Of a stretch of 64,000 nt of DNA, positions 784 to 8,263 are shown piece after piece. The notes under the pieces were generated by a model. The model did not search any database and was not told where the DNA came from. It saw nothing but the letters and a program-made list of their open reading frames with translations. Source of the DNA: Dyadobacter tibetensis Y620-1 (GTDB lineage Bacteria > Bacteroidota > Bacteroidia > Cytophagales > Spirosomataceae); assembly GCF_000566685.1 (NCBI RefSeq), contig NZ_AZQN01000004.1:310001-374000 (forward strand). The letters run 5' to 3'. The stretch's first letter is position 1; each line of letters begins with the position of its first letter. Both the position numbers and the translations under genes were made by a program.

Positions 784-1842
784 TCAATCACAGTGGCCTG
801 CATTGATTACAATTTGCCCATCTACCACCTGGTAGTCGGCATGAATCGTTTCGCAGATCAAAGCCAGTTTATCATACAGTGGCTCAGTAGAAAGTGTAGC
901 GGTTAAATTGCATTTCTTCAACAGTTGTTCGTCATACAGCATCGTGACACCATAAACACGCTCCAGATCCTTTAGTACGACATGCATTGGCGTTTCACGA
1001 TATATAAAGGATTCCACAGCATGTTGATCAATCGGAATAGGCGTTTCGACGAGTGTTTTTACTATTTTATGCTCCGCTCGCAAGAAAATTGCTTGCTGAT
1101 TTGGGGTTAAAATAAGCTCCTCTGAAAGCTTTGTAACGGGGGTTAGCTCATCTTTATACACCGTAACTTTACCACTGCTTACCGAAACCGAAATACTTTG
1201 ATCGTCTGTCTCCGTATTGATCCGAAATTTCGTCCCTAGAACCTTGGTCACCAGGCCTCCGGTATAAACCAAAAAAGGAGAATTGACATTGCGTTGAACG
1301 CTGAATTCCGCCTCACCTTCCAGATAAACTTCCCGATATTCAAATCCGAATTCCTTGTCGATTCTCAGGGTACTATTGGGTTCCAGACTCACCTCACTTC
1401 CATCCCCAAGTGTTATGAGCTGTGGGGTAACATGGTAATTGGTAAAGACCTCTTTAAAACTTGCTTTCTCTACAGGATGAGCCAACTGGGTAGATACAGG
1501 AATTTTCTGATACAACCACCAGCCTAGCGCCATCAATAGCAAGGTACTGGCAGCTACCTGCCATACCCCCCTTTTCCACCAGGATCCGGTTGATGTTTCC
1601 TGAATTTGTTGCATAATCTGTTCTATGGCTTGCCGGTCGGCCTCAGGCTCACTGTAACCTAGGTCACACTGAAAGGCTTTAATCATTTCTGTGGCTTGTT
1701 GGACAAGTGGCTTTTTATCGGGATATTCTTTCAGCCAGAGCTCCCAGAAACGATCATCGGACTGAGAATCTCCTAGCACCCATTTTCGAAAATGCTTATT
1801 TTGCACCAAATCGTCGACTTGATAATCCTTATATGATTTCAT
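784..1842 (-). CDS. FecR family anti-sigma factor
   Basis: 352 residues, typical for the family. Cytosolic N-terminal segment (about 1-85) that binds the sigma factor, one membrane helix (about 90-110, VWQVAASTLLLMALGWW), a periplasmic FecR domain (about 125-240, with ITLGDGSEVSLEPNSTLRI) and a C-terminal DUF4974 module (about 275-350) expected to contact the STN domain of the receptor. It should hold the ECF sigma factor at the membrane and release it when the partner receptor binds its ligand. It sits between the sigma gene (62 bases upstream) and the SusC gene, so the three form one signalling unit. Confidence 0.93.
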   Translation of the reverse strand: MKSYKDYQVDDLVQNKHFRKWVLGDSQSDDRFWELWLKEYPDKKPLVQQATEMIKAFQCDLGYSEPEADRQAIEQIMQQIQETSTGSWWKRGVWQVAASTLLLMALGWWLYQKIPVSTQLAHPVEKASFKEVFTNYHVTPQLITLGDGSEVSLEPNSTLRIDKEFGFEYREVYLEGEAEFSVQRNVNSPFLVYTGGLVTKVLGTKFRINTETDDQSISVSVSSGKVTVYKDELTPVTKLSEELILTPNQQAIFLRAEHKIVKTLVETPIPIDQHAVESFIYRETPMHVVLKDLERVYGVTMLYDEQLLKKCNLTATLSTEPLYDKLALICETIHADYQVVDGQIVINAGHCD

Positions 1843-1903
1843 GATCAGATTTTCTTGAATAAATAATTAGCTCCCGCACAGGCATCAGACGTTCCAGACA
1901 GCC

Positions 1904-2539
1904 CTAGCTCACAAGAATTGGCATGATCAGCAACCAGGATAGAAACCAATTTTTGCGCATAAGCTTCAATGCTTCGTAAATAAGGTTGACTGCTGAATGG
2001 CGGTTGATGTCCATAATATTGGAGATCTCTTCATATTCTAACTCCTGGTAAAAACGCAGATAAATCACTTCCCTCTGTCTTTTGGTAAGTTTATTTAAAT
2101 TCATCTTTAGTCGAATCAGTGATTCGTGTTTTATCTCGTTATTGATAAGGTAGTTTTCTATCGAAAATTGTACATCAAAATGATCGTCCTCCTGTATTTC
2201 TCTCGCCTCCCTGAACCAGCGTAATCGGCGCGATTCTCGAATGACACGTCTCCGTAATGAAGCCAGCAGATAGGGTTTAAGATTGTTTACCGTTTCCAGT
2301 TGTTGACGCCTGTTCCATATTTCTACAAAGAGATCCTGCAAACAATCTTTTACAAATTCTGGATCGTCTTTAATGCGGACCCCATAATTCATCAGCAGAG
2401 GATAATAGCGCTCCAGCAATTTGGAAAAGGCGATCTGATCTCCATTTTGAACTAATAGCCACAAACGATGCTCCTCCACATTGGAAGCATTTCTGGAAAA
2501 CTTCTCTTGAAGACTTAATTGATTACTGGAAGGCGCCAT
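1904..2539 (-). CDS. ECF RNA polymerase sigma factor (sigma-70 family)
   Basis: 211 residues. Region 2 is visible around residues 38-75 (LLERYYPLLMNYGVRI ... CLQDLFVEIWNRRQQL) and region 4 around 147-195 (LTKRQREVIYLRFYQELEY followed by a helix-turn-helix, EEISNIMDINRHSAVNLIYEAL). It lacks regions 1 and 3, as ECF factors do. The tail ends in a hydrophobic stretch (WFLSWLLIMPILV), common in Bacteroidota FecI-like factors. It probably drives transcription of the downstream SusC locus under control of the neighbouring FecR. Confidence 0.93.
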   Translation of the reverse strand: MAPSSNQLSLQEKFSRNASNVEEHRLWLLVQNGDQIAFSKLLERYYPLLMNYGVRIKDDPEFVKDCLQDLFVEIWNRRQQLETVNNLKPYLLASLRRRVIRESRRLRWFREAREIQEDDHFDVQFSIENYLINNEIKHESLIRLKMNLNKLTKRQREVIYLRFYQELEYEEISNIMDINRHSAVNLIYEALKLMRKNWFLSWLLIMPILVS

Positions 2540-3010
2540 TCAGAATAATTAATAACCATCGGTGATAAAACATCATTTTACCTGCTTACTTGTTAGGAGA
2601 CTAGATATAGAAGAATATCCTGATTATTTTTTGTTTTTTTTGCTAGCCAGTAAAATTTAAGTTCATAAAATTTGGCAGTGCAGAGCATAAGCAACAGCCC
2701 AAATGAGTAATTTGGAGGTTTAATTTTTACGATCAGTAAGATGAGCTCTTGTTGATCGGTATAGAATTTAATAGTTGGCAAATCCTGCTTCTTCCCTACT
2801 TCGGATACTACCAGATTACAAAGAAGAGGGGCTAGCTTTTTTATCGGCAGAATTAGCTAGATGAAAACAGGCAATAGATTTCTCCACTGACAAGAAAGTC
2901 AGCCCAGAATCCGGGTATTAGAATAGATGACTTTAATCTGGCAATTAGATCAAAAAAAATGCCTCACCCTGCGATGGGGAGGCATACTTTATACAGGAAA
3001 GTAACCGTTG
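2540..3010. other. intergenic region, no gene seen
   Basis: 471 AT-rich bases between the sigma-factor start and the end of a lipoprotein gene. It holds the lipoprotein's terminator (2952-2984) and a weak 5-bp dyad CTGAC/GTCAG near 2886-2901. A 62-codon open frame at 2593-2781 (minus) has AT-driven composition, no ribosome-binding site and no recognisable domain, so I do not call it. Confidence 0.6.
2952..2984 (-). terminator. rho-independent terminator of the 3011-3412 gene
   Basis: On the minus strand a GC-rich stem (GCCTCCCC against GGGTGAGGC, one mismatch) with loop ATCGCA is followed by eight T. It starts 27 bases after the lipoprotein stop codon. Confidence 0.85.
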
Positions 3011-3412
3011 CTATTTATTGGTACTCAATACAACGAAATTACTTGGATATTTCACATCTTCGCTACTCTCAGCAGTAATAAATATTTTATTGGGCTCTTG
3101 AGGAGAAACGGTAGAGAGGTCGCCCTTTAGCCCCTTGGAAGAAATTTTAATCATACCCAGTTTTTCGGCATCAACCTTCTTATTGTCCATCCATACGACA
3201 TAATGCGAACGACTGGGTGTCAGCTGTTCGGGCTGTGCCAGGTTACGCACTTGTACGGAAATGGCATAGTTGTCATTTTTATCCTTTTTGACCTTCGCGG
3301 AGCCCGACGCCGCAGGCACAACTGAGGAATTGACAAACTGCATCTGGTTAGAACAGGCGCTCATCACAAGGCCAAGAAAAAGGATGCCTGCTAATTTGTT
3401 GATAGTCTTCAT
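3011..3412 (-). CDS. small conserved lipoprotein, function unknown
   Basis: 133 residues. A signal peptide with lipobox VMSAC puts the lipidated Cys at residue 20. The mature part carries HYVVWMDNKK, a basic linker, and KIFITAESSEDVKYPSNFVVLST, a pattern I associate with a Bacteroidota family distantly like the extracytoplasmic beta-sandwich of RskA-type anti-sigma proteins; no helix or sigma-binding zinc motif is present, so a regulatory role is not supported. Monocistronic: its own terminator follows and a possible promoter lies just upstream. Product name limited to what is visible. Confidence 0.75.
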   Translation of the reverse strand: MKTINKLAGILFLGLVMSACSNQMQFVNSSVVPAASGSAKVKKDKNDNYAISVQVRNLAQPEQLTPSRSHYVVWMDNKKVDAEKLGMIKISSKGLKGDLSTVSPQEPNKIFITAESSEDVKYPSNFVVLSTNK

Positions 3413-3426
3413 ATTGAAATTTTGCT

Positions 3427-3458
3427 TAAAGTTAAATATATAGCCTTCCTATCTGCAA
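3427..3458 (-). promoter_or_regulatory. possible promoter for the 3011-3412 lipoprotein gene
   Basis: Minus strand: TTG (3456-3458), 21 bases, TAACTTTA (3427-3434), one base off the Bacteroidota -7 consensus TAnnTTTG. Transcription would begin very close to the ATG at 3412, so the leader would be short. Confidence 0.35.
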
Positions 3459-3605
3459 GTGATAAATTCAAACTTCTTCATTACTTTCCACTACACAAAA
3501 CCTATCAGAGAAAGGTCGATCGTGGGAAAGGAGGCTACTATTAGAATGCCCTTAAATTACGAAATAATTCAATGGAGGAAGAATCTATCTCCAATTCTTT
3601 TTAGA

Positions 3606-4325
3606 TTACTCCGTCATCTTGCCAGACTTCTTTAAATAACGTACCAGGAGATACAAAAACGCCAAAATTACGATAGAGGTAAGAAAGAAATTTTTATTGG
3701 CCGTTGTGGTAGCAAATAGCTGTGGATAATTAATACTGATGATCGCCACAATCCCTGCCAGCCAGATAAAGAGGGTATTATATTCTTTGAGTACCCAACG
3801 TTTGTAGTTAAAACGCATTGCGCTCATTGACTTTCCTATGCCACGGGGGTCAATTAACCAACGGTTCACGCGTTGGGTATATCGCTCGAAGTCGGAGCCA
3901 AATTTATTTCGGAGAAAATTTTCCTCTGCCAACACAATGGCCTGATAAATAAAAAGAAAGAGTGGAATGACCACAATCACATAAATCAAGGAATTAGAAA
4001 GTATCCCCACCCCTGCAAGCATAAGAATATTACCTACATATAGCGGATTACGACCATGGTTGAAGATTCCTTCCGTCACCAGCTTTTCTGCATAAACTTT
4101 CTTGTCTTTACCACCACGAATGATATAAGCCAGTCCAATGGTAATGCCACGGGTAAGCTCCCCTAGAATGGTGATGAGCAAACCAGCAATAAGGGGGATA
4201 AAATAATACTCCGGTCCAAATATTTCTGCTGTAAACAGCTCGGGAGATGGAGCGAAAAGTAAGAGATATAAAAAAATAAAAAGAATGTTTCTATACTTAA
4301 AAAAGAAGTTTCCTATTGCGATCAT
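3606..4325 (-). CDS. isoprenylcysteine carboxyl methyltransferase-like membrane methyltransferase
   Basis: 239 residues with about five to six hydrophobic helices. The C-terminal catalytic signature of the ICMT / phospholipid methyltransferase superfamily is present: NHGRNPLYVGNILML near residues 88-102 and EENFLRNKFGSDFERYTQRV near 132-152, where the conserved Arg-Asn-Pro and Glu residues bind S-adenosylmethionine. It acts in the inner membrane; the substrate (lipid, isoprenoid or quinone-like) cannot be told from sequence. Its ATG overlaps the stop of the upstream cmoA gene (ATGA), so the two should be translationally coupled, which is unusual company for either family. The C-terminal third adds two more helices (WLAGIVAIISI; FFLTSIVILAFLYLLV). 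Confidence 0.85.
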   Translation of the reverse strand: MIAIGNFFFKYRNILFIFLYLLLFAPSPELFTAEIFGPEYYFIPLIAGLLITILGELTRGITIGLAYIIRGGKDKKVYAEKLVTEGIFNHGRNPLYVGNILMLAGVGILSNSLIYVIVVIPLFLFIYQAIVLAEENFLRNKFGSDFERYTQRVNRWLIDPRGIGKSMSAMRFNYKRWVLKEYNTLFIWLAGIVAIISINYPQLFATTTANKNFFLTSIVILAFLYLLVRYLKKSGKMTE

Positions 4326-5059
4326 TTCTTAAAAGCGATTAGTCCTGAAAAATTATACCATTTGAAAAACATTTCACAACCGTCAAAACCGGCATCATGC
4401 AGCATTTGCGTGTTTTCGGCAACGGTATATGGTATCAGTACATTTTCCAATGCTTCCCGCTTTTGTGAAATCTCCATTTCACTATAGCCATTTCTTCTTT
4501 TATAGTTATAATAGTATTTTATAAAATCTCTGTTAAATAAGCTGTGATCGGTAAGTACCTTTTCAATTAAGATAAAACACCCCCCTGGATTCAATCCCTT
4601 GAATATCTGTTCAACAATCTTGCTGCGATGGGTCGGTCTTACAAATTGGAGCGTAAGAGACATAATGACTACGGAAGCATTTTCAATTTTAGAGTCATTA
4701 TTTATATCTCCTACTACTAATTCATGGGGCCTAGTTATACCTGCCTGGTCAAATTTGAGCTCGGAACGTTGGATCATCTCGGCCGAATCATCAATACCAA
4801 CAAATTCAACAGTAGGGTCTACAAGTGGATCTAAGGCGATCAACGAGGTACCCGTACTACAGCCCAGATCGTAAACTCTTGAATTGGGCCTGGCATGGCT
4901 CGCCGCCAGCTCTGTAATCATACGCTGAATCTCATCGTAAAAAGGCACGGACCTATTGACCATGTCGTCAAAAACATTTACTACCTTACTCTCAAACTTA
5001 AAATCAGATACCTGTTGAATCTCCGAATCAAAAACCTTATCTATATTCCTCTGCTCCAT
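4322..5059 (-). CDS. cmoA: carboxy-S-adenosyl-L-methionine synthase-like protein (CmoA family)
   Basis: 245 residues, the normal CmoA length, and collinear with E. coli CmoA along its whole length: RSVPFYDEIQRMI, the SAM-binding loop VYDLGCSTGTS, GIDDSAEMI, LTLQFVRPTHR, GLNPGGCFILIEK and the C-terminal NGYSEMEISQKREALENV, which includes the Arg that holds the carboxyl of Cx-SAM. The family converts SAM plus prephenate to carboxy-SAM, normally used by CmoB for tRNA wobble uridine. No cmoB is in the window; instead the gene overlaps a membrane methyltransferase. A plausible promoter with a central dyad lies upstream (5118-5147). Confidence 0.88.
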   Translation of the reverse strand: MEQRNIDKVFDSEIQQVSDFKFESKVVNVFDDMVNRSVPFYDEIQRMITELAASHARPNSRVYDLGCSTGTSLIALDPLVDPTVEFVGIDDSAEMIQRSELKFDQAGITRPHELVVGDINNDSKIENASVVIMSLTLQFVRPTHRSKIVEQIFKGLNPGGCFILIEKVLTDHSLFNRDFIKYYYNYKRRNGYSEMEISQKREALENVLIPYTVAENTQMLHDAGFDGCEMFFKWYNFSGLIAFKK

Positions 5060-5398: not shown

Positions 5399-6772
5399 AT
5401 GCCAATCTCAAAAGCCAAGATTTTAATTATCGACAATGATATAGAGGTATTAACTGCTGCCAAACTGCTTATCAAAAGGCATGCCGCTACAGTGGATATA
5501 GAAAAAAATCCCGAGAATATTCCATTTTTGGTAACCAATGGTAATTACGATATCATCTTACTGGATATGAATTACACCGGAAATCTTCATAGTGAAAAAG
5601 AAGGTCTTCACTGGCTCGACAAAATTCTGGATATTCAACCCCTTGCCAAAGTTATCATGATCACCTCCAATAGTGATATAGAGCTGGCGGTTCAGACGAT
5701 TAAGGCGGGAGCAGCAGATTTTATTATGAAGCCCTGGGATAACGAAAAGCTTCTTAACACGCTGGAAAAGGCCCTCGAGGCCCCTTATATGACCTCTTTA
5801 GAGGACCCCCATTCGATTTCGAAAAACGAGAGGTCTTCAGAGGCCAAAGCAGGCCATCTCCCTACCTTTGTTGCGAATAGTGCGGCTATGCGCGAACTGA
5901 TGCAAGCGGTTGATCGTGTAGCAGACACGGATACCAGAATCCTTATCTTAGGCGAAAATGGAACCGGGAAAACTCAGCTGGCACAGCAGATACATTATAG
6001 ATCTAGGCGCTCGGATAGACCCTTTATAGCGGTTGACCTAGGCTCAGTAAATGAAGAATTGTTCGAGAGTGAATTGTTTGGCCATTCTCAAGAAGCAGTC
6101 ACCGATGCCCTGTCAGACCAGTCGGGCCGGCTCGAAGCAGCGACGGGTGGAACTTTATTTCTAGATGAAATTGGAAGTTTGAGTCCAACGTTGCAGGCCA
6201 AGCTCATCACGGTGCTTCAAGAGCAAAAAGTGACGAGGGTGGGGAGTGATAAACTGATTGAGCTAGATTTTCGCTTGATATGTGCAACGAATATGCCCTT
6301 GGAAGAAATGGAAGCTAACCAATCATTTCGTCAGAATCTATATTACGGGATGAATACTATCGTCCTTTCCATTCCTCCATTACGCGAGCGACCCGAAGAC
6401 ATTAAAAGTCTGGCAGACTTCTATCTGAACACCTTTGCCAGAAAGTATAACCGACCGGTAACCCATATGGACAAAGATTTGATAAAGGACATGATGCATT
6501 ACCATTGGCCAGGAAATATTCGTGAACTCCAGCATGCCATGGAAAGAGCCGTGATTCTGTCCTCTGGCCAATGCCTGGATGCGGATACCATGCAGCTTAA
6601 AAATGCGGAATTTCCTGAGGAGTCCAATCCGGGATTAGACCTGGAAGAAATGGAGAGGTCTATGATCAAAAAAACTTTGAAAAAACATGCGGGAAATATC
6701 CCAGCAACAGCTCGGGAATTAGAGTTAAGCCGAGCGGCTTTGTATCGTCGAATTGAGAAATACAGAATATAA
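5399..6772 (+). CDS. NtrC-type response regulator with degenerate sigma-54 contact motif
   Basis: 457 residues. Receiver domain 1-125 (acidic pocket IDNDIEV, phospho-Asp in IILLDMNY, switch Thr in VIMITSN, Lys in FIMKPW). AAA+ domain about 150-390: Walker A GENGTGKTQLA, Walker B GGTLFLDEIG. Fis-type helix-turn-helix at the C-terminus (GNIPATARELELSRAALYRRI). Odd points: the GAFTGA loop, GAFTDA in related Bacteroidota proteins, reads EAVTDA; the usual second Arg of the FRxDLYYR arginine-finger segment is Gly (FRQNLYYGMN); the acidic pocket is D-N-D. No histidine kinase is adjacent. It may bind DNA without activating sigma-54. It ends two bases from the convergent LEA gene. Confidence 0.9.
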   Translation: MPISKAKILIIDNDIEVLTAAKLLIKRHAATVDIEKNPENIPFLVTNGNYDIILLDMNYTGNLHSEKEGLHWLDKILDIQPLAKVIMITSNSDIELAVQTIKAGAADFIMKPWDNEKLLNTLEKALEAPYMTSLEDPHSISKNERSSEAKAGHLPTFVANSAAMRELMQAVDRVADTDTRILILGENGTGKTQLAQQIHYRSRRSDRPFIAVDLGSVNEELFESELFGHSQEAVTDALSDQSGRLEAATGGTLFLDEIGSLSPTLQAKLITVLQEQKVTRVGSDKLIELDFRLICATNMPLEEMEANQSFRQNLYYGMNTIVLSIPPLRERPEDIKSLADFYLNTFARKYNRPVTHMDKDLIKDMMHYHWPGNIRELQHAMERAVILSSGQCLDADTMQLKNAEFPEESNPGLDLEEMERSMIKKTLKKHAGNIPATARELELSRAALYRRIEKYRI

Positions 6773-6774
6773 AT

Positions 6775-7680
6775 TTAATTGGCTATACTCTTTTTTAATT
6801 TCTCCATGTCCTTTAATTCACCTTCAATGATGAGGTTCATGGGGCTATTAGAAAACACTTCATTTTCTGAAGTTAGGGTACTTTTTATATGTAGGGTAAA
6901 AGGGAGATCCTTGCCCTGGCCAATTAGTTGCCCTACTGCCTTAAGCAATTTGCCCATTTCTATTTTAAAAGGCAGTTCGTAAGTTGCTTTACTTTTTGCC
7001 GGGATCACCGTTGTCCCAGGCTTATGCCCCTCTCCCAAGTTGGCTTGGGAGCCCAGGTCGATCATAAAATAGGGATCTTTAAACTCTATTGGAAATACAT
7101 TTTGGTTATCAATTTGGATTTTAAGAACAATTTCTGATTCGCTTAGCCGAAATTTTTCCATATCATATCCGGAAACCTTAATCTGCAGCACGCGGTACAA
7201 GGGAAGACGTGCGTTTCGGACGACACGAATCATATCCTTTCCCAATACAGGTTTTGCAAGAAGCAACTTAGCTTCAAAATGGTAATCCGCACTGTCTACT
7301 CCTTTGTTGGCCTCGGCAACACTCTCTTTGGAAAGATCGCCAAGATTGAACTTTGCGGGAATTTCTACCTTGCTACTATCCCTGGATTCTATCTTGAATG
7401 GCTGTTGATACCGATCCTCAATCACTACAATGTCATTCATTTTAATCAGATAATCGAAACCCTTCAAATCCAACCCTACTGGGAGCGGATTATGGACCAA
7501 TAAATTTAAGGTAAGGTCTACAGACTTTTCAGTAATATTGTCAATCTTCCCTACCCCTACTTCTACCCGGGGCTTTAAGCCTGATACCGGATTGGCATAT
7601 CGCTTTTTGTAGAAAAAATAGCCTAGTACCAGTAATACTAGGACGGCCAGAAGGCTAAGAATGACTGTAGATTTTTTCAT
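6775..7680 (-). CDS. LEA type 2 family protein with two WHy-like domains
   Basis: 301 residues. An N-terminal membrane anchor (residues 4-23, TVILSLLAVLVLLVLGYFFY) is followed by two tandem LEA14/WHy-type beta-sandwiches, recognisable by SVDLTLNLLVHNPLPVGLDLKG-like and EIVLKIQIDNQNVFPIEFKD-like strands (about 50-150 and 185-290). Such proteins are associated with desiccation or envelope stress and are expected in the periplasm, tethered to the inner membrane. The stop codon is two bases from that of the convergent response regulator, leaving no room for a separate terminator. Confidence 0.8.
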   Translation of the reverse strand: MKKSTVILSLLAVLVLLVLGYFFYKKRYANPVSGLKPRVEVGVGKIDNITEKSVDLTLNLLVHNPLPVGLDLKGFDYLIKMNDIVVIEDRYQQPFKIESRDSSKVEIPAKFNLGDLSKESVAEANKGVDSADYHFEAKLLLAKPVLGKDMIRVVRNARLPLYRVLQIKVSGYDMEKFRLSESEIVLKIQIDNQNVFPIEFKDPYFMIDLGSQANLGEGHKPGTTVIPAKSKATYELPFKIEMGKLLKAVGQLIGQGKDLPFTLHIKSTLTSENEVFSNSPMNLIIEGELKDMEKLKKSIAN

Positions 7681-7700
7681 ACCGAGGGATTAGAATGCTA

Positions 7701-7726
7701 ACCCCGGCCGAGCGTACAGCCGGGGT
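7701..7726 (-). terminator. GC-rich hairpin after the pyridoxamine-oxidase-like gene
   Basis: Perfect 8-bp arms ACCCCGGC (7701-7708) and GCCGGGGT (7719-7726). There is no T-run on either strand, so it may stabilise or process RNA between two co-directional genes rather than terminate. Confidence 0.5.
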
Positions 7727-7756
7727 GATTGCTTTGTCGTTTCCTGAAGAAGGAGA

Positions 7757-8263
7757 TTAATGTATCTGTATGGTTCCGTGTTCTCCGGAAACTCCATTCT
7801 TATCAGCGTCGCCCGTCAGGATAGATTTAATCAGGGAAAGGAAGACCACCATTTTCGAAGAAGTACTATCCCAGTAAGAGGCCTCGGTTGAGCGAAAGCG
7901 AATCATTACCAGATCCGGATCATTCTTTCCTTCGGGGAACCACGCCTTGGAGACAGGGCTCCATAAAGCTTCTTTTTTGGCCTCATCTACTACGTGCTCC
8001 CAGGTTCCTTTTACACTCATGTAACTATTATGACCTGGATGAGCATAGATCAGGCTCGCCTCTTGTACCTGACCAGTGCTACCTAGGTCAGTGTCCCTGC
8101 TAGTAAAAAACCATATACATCCCTCGCTATCCACATCCAGAGTGGTCATAGGCCTGGAGACGATCTCCCCATCTTCCAGCGTGGTAAACATGCATATGTT
8201 AATTTCCTCAGCTAATTCTTTAAGTTTATCGATTCCCTTTTGGTCAATTAAGTTGGTTTCCAT
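7757..8263 (-). CDS. pyridoxamine 5'-phosphate oxidase-like / general stress protein 26 family
   Basis: 168 residues from ATG 8263. A split-barrel flavin-binding fold of the general stress protein family: KELAEEINICMFTTLEDGEIVSRPMTTLDVD near the N-terminus, then IWFFTSRDTDLG and KEALWSPVSKAWFPEGKNDPDLVMIRF in the middle. Such proteins bind FMN, FAD or F420-like cofactors; few have a known substrate. An upstream in-frame start at 8365 would add 34 residues rich in Arg that fall in a palindrome-rich stretch and do not resemble the family, so I reject it. It follows tenA on the same strand. Confidence 0.87.
   Translation of the reverse strand: METNLIDQKGIDKLKELAEEINICMFTTLEDGEIVSRPMTTLDVDSEGCIWFFTSRDTDLGSTGQVQEASLIYAHPGHNSYMSVKGTWEHVVDEAKKEALWSPVSKAWFPEGKNDPDLVMIRFRSTEASYWDSTSSKMVVFLSLIKSILTGDADKNGVSGEHGTIQIH

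Follow-up and report, generated by a model that had tools for sequence, protein, structure and literature searches.

The cmoA gene of Dyadobacter tibetensis Y620-1 overlaps the gene of an integral membrane protein (hereafter the partner), which, judged from comparison of both proteins with their relatives, is most likely a membrane carboxymethyltransferase that takes carboxy-S-adenosylmethionine (Cx-SAM) as its donor and a lipophilic molecule as its acceptor. Both genes lie in a stretch of 64,000 nucleotides (contig NZ_AZQN01000004.1, positions 310,001 to 374,000; hereafter the window). CmoA converts S-adenosylmethionine (SAM) and prephenate to Cx-SAM.

CmoA and the conserved gene pair

The window CmoA passes the curated cut-off of the CmoA family model TIGR00740 (243.3 against 193.3 bits), and its residues 6-244 align to the Escherichia coli CmoA structure 4gek (E 2e-53). 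Passages of PMC3663124 describe Arg199 of E. coli CmoA as binding the Cx-SAM carboxylate; in our alignment this residue corresponds to Arg201 of the window protein, and Glu164 is likewise kept. A first-pass annotation made from the sequence had named a full-length CmoA homologue with the Cx-SAM-binding segment, and this description holds.

We then scanned genome contigs with peptide patterns taken from CmoA alone, which yielded 77 loci. The membrane gene is a neighbour of cmoA in 71 of them (including L066, where the partner is split over two frames): it lies downstream on the same strand in 67 and upstream on the other strand in four. A four-base overlap, as judged from computed starts, is present in 31 of the 67 same-strand pairs. 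The six loci without a neighbouring partner are three of the Methylococcales in genomes with CmoB (L061, L069 and L073), two in genomes with neither CmoB nor partner (L072 and L074) and a 41-residue cmoA-like fragment (L077), whose genome carries an intact pair elsewhere. Dyadobacter contributes 29 of the 71 paired loci; the others include Chitinophagaceae, Sphingobacteriaceae, Hymenobacteraceae and Methylococcaceae. Genome G473, with an intact pair on contig C28, also has a partial CmoA and a partner match with two stops on contig C12 (3188-3805), perhaps a decayed second copy.

Distribution within whole taxonomic groups gives a similar picture. In the order of the source genome (148 genomes), CmoA above the cut-off and a close partner (378-412 bits) are each present in six genomes; these are the same six, and the two genes are adjacent in all. 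Other partner-like matches in this order score at most 128 bits and belong to genomes without above-cut-off CmoA. In the phylum of the source genome (247 genomes), above-cut-off CmoA is present in eight: six have cmoB directly adjacent and no close partner, and two (G000 and G115) have an adjacent partner and no CmoB. CmoA-like matches below the cut-off are not counted here, i.e. those of nine order genomes (61-83 bits) and phylum matches that include G219, G230 and G161 (148-179 bits). In the order of Methylobacter marinus (G264; 121 genomes), a close partner (at least 195 bits) is found in 11 genomes, all of which carry CmoA, with the two genes adjacent in ten.

Clustering of the neighbouring genes over the loci of the CmoA scan reveals no third gene common across lineages. 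Dyadobacter loci have further neighbours in common (up to 26 loci), 12 Chitinophagaceae-type loci share one cluster and ten loci (L124 included) share a NifU-type gene; these neighbours held in common within lineages are read as synteny by descent.

A rival explanation is that CmoA supplies a tRNA carboxymethyltransferase of a kind unrelated to CmoB, with the membrane gene as a passenger of an old operon. The first known role of CmoA is in tRNA modification, and the many other neighbours that Dyadobacter loci have in common mean that the pair may be kept there by descent. MccB, as described in passages of PMC10491745, shows that transferases unlike CmoB exist. We consider this explanation highly improbable, because the two genes stay together in Bacteroidota, Alpha- and Gammaproteobacteria and Gemmatimonadota although their surroundings there are unrelated, and because none of the 148 order genomes has one of the two genes alone.

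Distribution of CmoB

PF08003, the Pfam model of CmoB, finds no match in the source genome (5.31 Mb, 33 contigs, completeness rated 100%), and a search with TIGR00452 gives weak matches at most (best E 1e-4), none of them above the cut-off. The absence of cmoB that had been noticed in the window therefore extends to the whole genome. CmoB above the cut-off is also absent from all 65 Bacteroidota genome entries with the pair (0/30 and 0/35; species may repeat among the named loci), so that Cx-SAM in these genomes needs another user. It had been proposed earlier to compare the co-occurrence of cmoA with cmoB and with the membrane gene; the outcome is that the pair is conserved together in relatives, with no normal cmoB elsewhere in the source genome.

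Four other genomes with the pair are without CmoB (L045, L065, L067 and L070), two of them probably misbinned. In metagenome-assembled genomes (MAGs) assigned to KSB1 (L045) and Williamsia (L065), the pair is either nearly identical to that of Methylobacter or of Bacteroidota type; probable misbinning is the reason why neither is given weight as a separate phylum.

All six Bacteroidota genomes that carry a canonical cmoA also have CmoB, as do the three Methylococcales genomes with cmoA but without the partner. Among the 25 genomes that have above-cut-off CmoA and were checked for all three genes, 24 contain CmoB, the partner or both.

Competence of the paired CmoA

Six Cx-SAM-contacting positions (i.e. 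Arg199, Glu164, Asp62, Gly64, Asp89 and Phe137 in E. coli numbering) are kept in 73 of 73 paired CmoA proteins. Two other contacts vary: Asn132 is replaced by Cys in 69 of the 73, and Asn90 by Asp or Glu in 71. In the CmoA tree, a well supported branch (100/99) parts the paired CmoA proteins from those encoded next to CmoB, with E. coli among the latter, and CmoA proteins of the Methylococcales sit on the paired side. Five Methylococcales genomes (G267, G269, G277, G279 and G281) contain CmoB, the partner and, at E 1e-30, a single CmoA, which is partner-linked, and three genomes (G280, G286 and G289) contain CmoB and one paired-side CmoA without a close partner. A paired-side protein being the sole CmoA of these CmoB-bearing genomes suggests that this kind of CmoA makes Cx-SAM usable by CmoB; the paired clade as a whole looks competent in this respect.

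Fold and family of the partner

By fold and motifs, the partner is a member of the ICMT/PEMT superfamily. It carries the Pfam PEMT domain PF04191 (43.6 bits against a cut-off of 25), and its structural model, computed from a 36-sequence alignment, has a mean predicted local distance difference test (pLDDT) score of 87.4 and a predicted template-modelling score (pTM) of 0.83. The model matches the folds of 5vg9 (residues 11-158) and 4a2n (residues 1-159) with Z scores of 12.2 and 10.9, respectively, although Z below about 13 can reflect an arrangement common among helical proteins; the fold call rests also on a profile match to 5v7p (E 2e-10). Residues R92, P94 and Y96 are present in 72/72 cmoA-linked and 27-28/28 unlinked sequences, and the E-E motif (134-135) in 72/72 and 28/28. 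Relatives without an adjacent cmoA are LmtA-like proteins and shorter PEMT-like proteins.

The best NCBIfam match of the partner is LmtA (TIGR04571; E 2e-20, residues 5-218), at 73.5 bits below the cut-off of 325, and the isoprenylcysteine methyltransferase model NF040696 gives 40.3 bits against a cut-off of 160, which is not reached. The earlier label of an ICMT-type enzyme thus stands for the fold but not for the family, since the partner scores nearer LmtA than ICMT and attains the cut-off of neither.

These scores bear on a second rival explanation, namely that the partner resembles LmtA in function, methylating a lipid A phosphate with SAM, and is unconnected to Cx-SAM. LmtA of Leptospira reportedly (in work of Hinckley from 2005) methylates the 1-phosphate of lipid A. 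The profile match to LmtA agrees with such a role, as do PAP2 genes beside or near the pair in three loci (L010, L067 and L193). Set against these points are the large shortfall from the LmtA cut-off, the TSG rather than RGG sequence in the key loop (see below) of the LmtA-like proteins L136, L157 and L086 (244-263 bits to TIGR04571; a fourth, L139, scores 162 bits, and all four are below the cut-off) and the observation that no LmtA-like relative examined adjoins cmoA. We regard this explanation as the least probable of the alternatives.

An arginine specific to cmoA-linked partners

The key loop of cmoA-linked partners reads Y-(I/V)-x-R-G-G, and that of LmtA-like relatives T-S-G-R/K-N, ungapped at the Thr. 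Over successive alignments, the loop Arg (Arg70 of the window protein) is present in 96 of 96 cmoA-linked sequences (72 + 4 + 10 + 1 + 9), two pairs of which are identical in the core, and the full motif in 95, the exception being L012 with R-S-G. By contrast, Thr occupies this position in all 42 alignable relatives without an adjacent cmoA (28 + 8 + 1 + 5). In the phylum of G264 (398 genomes), the partner profile gives a match of E 1e-25 or better in seven genomes: RGG occurs in two of these matches, both next to cmoA, and Thr in five, none of which has cmoA adjacent. The motif count leaves out the split partner of L066 and the repeats L078, L079, L131, L132 and L148; L133, L134 and L135 repeat L126, L074 and L072, respectively. 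The Thr count leaves out 18 distant matches (L158-L175; 57-75 bits) that are unalignable in the loop, none of which has RGG.

Partners of the Arg form make up a single clade (support 98/92; 97% of 200 bootstrap trees; 32 against 22 sequences), and the short PEMT-like proteins are the sister group of this clade. Single basic residues that grip the donor carboxylate have precedents: passages of PMC12783734 describe one Arg in CmoX and one basic residue in the engineered DNA methyltransferase M.MpeI N374K, which takes Cx-SAM, and passages of PMC10491745 describe Lys91 of CmoB together with Tyr200 and Arg315. Clade specificity and these precedents suggest, by sequence comparison and analogy, that Arg70 is likely to be the donor-selecting residue of the partner.

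Proposed function of the pair

We propose that cmoA and the partner form a self-contained carboxymethylation module. CmoA would turn SAM and prephenate into Cx-SAM; the membrane-integral partner, with its ICMT/PEMT fold, would bind Cx-SAM instead of SAM in an ICMT-type cofactor pocket, with Arg70 of the Y(I/V)xRGG loop holding the donor carboxylate; and a lipophilic molecule of the inner membrane would receive the carboxymethyl group. The first candidates for the acceptor are lipids with an amino- or phospho-headgroup, e.g. phosphatidylethanolamine, which would become N-carboxymethyl-phosphatidylethanolamine, or a lipid A phosphate by analogy with LmtA. An isoprenoid or quinone would be a second choice. 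PEMT-fold enzymes methylate phosphatidylethanolamine, and N-carboxymethyl-phosphatidylethanolamine is phosphatidylhydroxyethylglycine, a lipid of brown algae.

Direct use of Cx-SAM by the partner as carboxymethyl donor is, in our judgement, probable; we place less confidence in any particular acceptor. The first-pass annotation had suggested that the membrane enzyme may use Cx-SAM or act on the same substrate: the missing CmoB, the conserved pair and the clade-specific Arg all agree with a place in Cx-SAM metabolism, but direct use of the donor is a step that we infer. On balance we also lean towards a broader proposal, namely that the partner represents a membrane-embedded, non-Rossmann Cx-SAM carboxymethyltransferase making a new class of carboxymethylated bacterial lipids. 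The donor-side loop would have changed from Thr to Arg once, in an ICMT/PEMT-fold methyltransferase, and the enzyme would have formed with cmoA a two-gene cassette shared between phyla; its products could be, for example, N-carboxymethyl-phosphatidylethanolamine or a carboxymethyl phosphodiester on lipid A.

Several observations weigh against this proposal. CmoB is present in 17 of 18 Methylococcales genomes with the pair (7/8 and 10/10), not adjoining cmoA, so that an established user of Cx-SAM exists in that group. As 92 of the 121 genomes in the order of G264 have CmoA, co-occurrence is weak evidence in this order, and adjacency bears the weight. The close partner and CmoA are on separate contigs in G546, second CmoA copies lie away from the close partner in G264, G508 and G548, and one 2.5 Mb MAG (G288) has above-cut-off CmoA with neither CmoB nor the partner. 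Furthermore, related genomes are not independent samples. In the loop comparison, 21 of the 42 Thr sequences, i.e. the short PEMT-like proteins, are gapped directly after the Thr, and the Thr position is less sure there. Finally, a carboxylate-binding Arg had been sought in a model of the pocket: sequence comparison provides the clade-specific Arg, but its placement in the pocket is not secured by the model, in which loop 69-78 with Arg70 has a pLDDT below 50, and we infer its nearness to the donor.

Mobility of the pair

The pair also occurs on plasmids. Among plasmid records, 206 match the partner, 17 of them over at least 80% of its length, and 69 match CmoA; most of the matches outside the examined records are partial for the partner and more distant for CmoA. 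Nine records with both genes (L188-L196) were examined as plasmid pairs, along with L197 and L198. Eight of the nine are Rhizobiaceae megaplasmids and one is a plasmid of Gemmatirosa (Gemmatimonadota); Arg199 of CmoA and RGG of the partner are kept in every one of them. The four annotated plasmid settings of the pair are all different. On the plasmid of Rhizobium sp. T136 (L190 6213-9793), two oppositely oriented IS6 transposase genes enclose cmoA and the partner with no other listed gene, an arrangement that resembles transposon cargo. The gene table of this plasmid has gaps, with a locus tag number missing on either side of the pair, so that some small or broken genes could be absent from it. 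Group II introns and insertion sequence elements surround the pair in T1470. Among Methylococcales loci, L046 with the partner and L061 without it otherwise have the same gene order. We read cmoA and the partner as a mobile two-gene unit, and a pair moving on its own should be functionally complete with the host's own metabolites.

This mobility is relevant to a third rival explanation, in which the partner, with ordinary SAM, methylates a carboxylate or other site of a molecule carboxymethylated by an unlinked Cx-SAM enzyme. Such a step has parallels in ICMT, which makes methyl esters, and in CmoM, which methylates cmo5U, the CmoA/CmoB-dependent tRNA nucleoside; the ICMT fold is in keeping with it, given that true ICMT methylates a carboxylate, and a shared pathway would account for the pairing. 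We judge it unlikely. No further gene accompanies the pair from lineage to lineage, on two plasmids it stands by itself amid mobile elements, the replacement of Thr by Arg suits a switch of donor, and CmoB is absent from all 65 Bacteroidota pair entries, although an unlinked transferase of another sort could still play that part. Direct use of Cx-SAM by the partner is the reading that we prefer.

A relation to the phage CmoX system was also considered and rejected for this pair. The phage collection contains just two partial partner matches (35% over 32% of the query), and the CmoA relatives carried by 83 phage records are all less than 60% identical.

Gene features and neighbourhood

The coordinates, the ATGA overlap and the two-gene description given by the first-pass annotation are borne out by the sequence, to which the minus strand can now be added (Table 1). 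Positions 4322-4325 read TCAT on the plus strand, hence the four-base ATGA overlap, with cmoA first and the membrane gene downstream. Dyadobacter jejuensis is the nearest named relative for both proteins (CmoA 82%, partner 77%).

Table 1. Features of the cmoA locus, in window positions
Feature	Position	Strand	Basis
cmoA, carboxy-SAM synthase, 245 aa	4322-5059	minus	TIGR00740 profile and alignment to 4gek
Membrane ICMT-fold transferase gene, 239 aa, candidate Cx-SAM-dependent carboxymethyltransferase	3606-4325	minus	PF04191, fold, cmoA linkage
ATGA overlap of cmoA stop (TGA) and membrane gene start (ATG)	4322-4325	minus	sequence
Arg201 codon of cmoA (E. coli Arg199)	4457-4459	minus	alignment
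Codons 67-72 of membrane gene, Y-I-I-R-G-G, loop motif of CmoA-linked enzymes	4110-4127	minus	alignments
Arg70 codon of membrane gene	4116-4118	minus	within Y-I-I-R-G-G motif
Codons 92-96 of membrane gene, R-N-P-L-Y, common to ICMT/PEMT fold family	4038-4052	minus	alignment
Codons 134-135 of membrane gene, E-E, common ICMT/PEMT motif	3921-3926	minus	alignment

Flanking genes were classified in ten cases: NifU, Mem_trans, three aminotransferase-type, amylase, Rce1-like, two PAP2 and one family-less. Naming the substrate through a third gene was rejected, there being no neighbour conserved across lineages. In Rufibacter (L010), a gammaproteobacterium (L067) and Ensifer canadensis (L193), a PAP2 phosphatase gene adjoins the pair or lies close by; in the last of these it is the third gene downstream. 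The L067 protein scores 93.6 bits to a lipid A phosphatase model (cut-off 275), and that of L010 scores 19.3 bits to LpxE. Such proximity in three lineages is not enough to identify a substrate and gives a faint hint at lipid phosphates.

In the gammaproteobacterial MAG (L067 3207-7471), a sulfatase-fold gene with weak resemblance to phosphoglycerol transferase or lipoteichoic acid synthase precedes the pair, as does the PAP2 phosphatase gene; the operon also contains SurE-, hydrolase- and sulfatase-type genes. This envelope-flavoured gene run might hint at the acceptor.

Two other kinds of CmoA-like loci were observed. In L133 (G230, 1459-3619) and L197 (a Phocaeicola massiliensis plasmid, 5998-8158), a divergent CmoA-like protein with Arg199 replaced by Ser or Ala (163 bits in L133, below the cut-off) precedes two other membrane proteins that look ICMT-like by eye (the one that was scanned has no NCBIfam match), and there are proteins that by eye resemble an ABC exporter and saccharopine dehydrogenase. 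This may be a separate CmoA-like operon of the Bacteroidales in which Cx-SAM is perhaps unused. In L125 (G219) and L198 (Paenibacillus polymyxa pSC2), CmoA-like genes lie by ParB-like genes (by eye) or annotated DNA cytosine methyltransferase genes, a setting as in the phage CmoX system; the pSC2 CmoA-like protein is without Arg199.

Implications

The uses of Cx-SAM described in the passages cited here are few (i.e. tRNA, DNA, peptide and nucleotide), and the pair predicts a use at the membrane. The proposal names a candidate enzyme and one residue, Arg70, for testing. If it is true, a carboxymethylated lipid of Dyadobacter, Methylobacter or Ensifer may have escaped lipidomes, and the partner could serve to add carboxylate handles to lipids. 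Three plasmid records annotate the cmoA of the pair as a tRNA-modification gene, which is probably wrong where CmoB is absent.

A literature search found no paper joining cmoA, isoprenylcysteine and methyltransferase and, among the matches listed, none on this pair or on enzymatic bacterial carboxymethyl lipids, subscription literature being mostly uncovered.

Comparison with known systems

The first-pass annotation took CmoB to be the sole user of Cx-SAM, which is outdated: passages of PMC10491745 and PMC12783734 describe TglF and MccB-Bam (the former source) and phage CmoX (the latter). None of CmoB, TglF, MccB-Bam and CmoX is described as a membrane protein in the literature passages on them. 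Supply of Cx-SAM by an adjacent CmoA is a feature that the pair has in common with known Cx-SAM carboxymethyltransferases.

With the CmoA/CmoB system, which makes uridine 5-oxyacetic acid (cmo5U) in tRNA, the window locus shares a full CmoA member with Arg199 and Glu164; in contrast, its genome is without CmoB, and the partner differs from CmoB in fold and is integral to the membrane. The phage CmoA/CmoX/CmoY system, which makes 5-carboxymethylcytosine, likewise has CmoA beside a transferase that holds the carboxylate by an Arg (passages of PMC12783734), but CmoX is a homologue of DNA cytosine methyltransferases, whereas the pair has a membrane enzyme and resides in cellular genomes and megaplasmids. 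A CmoA homologue is also combined with a dedicated carboxymethyltransferase in TglE/TglF (3-thiaglutamate) and MccS/MccB-Bam (microcin C-like compounds), according to passages of PMC10491745; these systems act on peptide or nucleotide acceptors in biosynthetic clusters, in contrast to the two-gene unit with a membrane enzyme described here.

On the side of the partner, Leptospira LmtA is the closest profile with a described function, matching most of its length, but the partner falls below the family cut-off, has RGG where LmtA-like relatives have TSG, and LmtA is described as a methyltransferase. ICMT shares the fold and the R-x-P-x-Y and E-E motifs, but its family model is not matched at the cut-off, and the partner has ∼80 extra C-terminal residues with two long predicted helices. 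In brief, CmoA with a dedicated transferase is an arrangement already known, and a membrane, non-Rossmann partner of CmoA is the part that does not occur among the literature matches listed.

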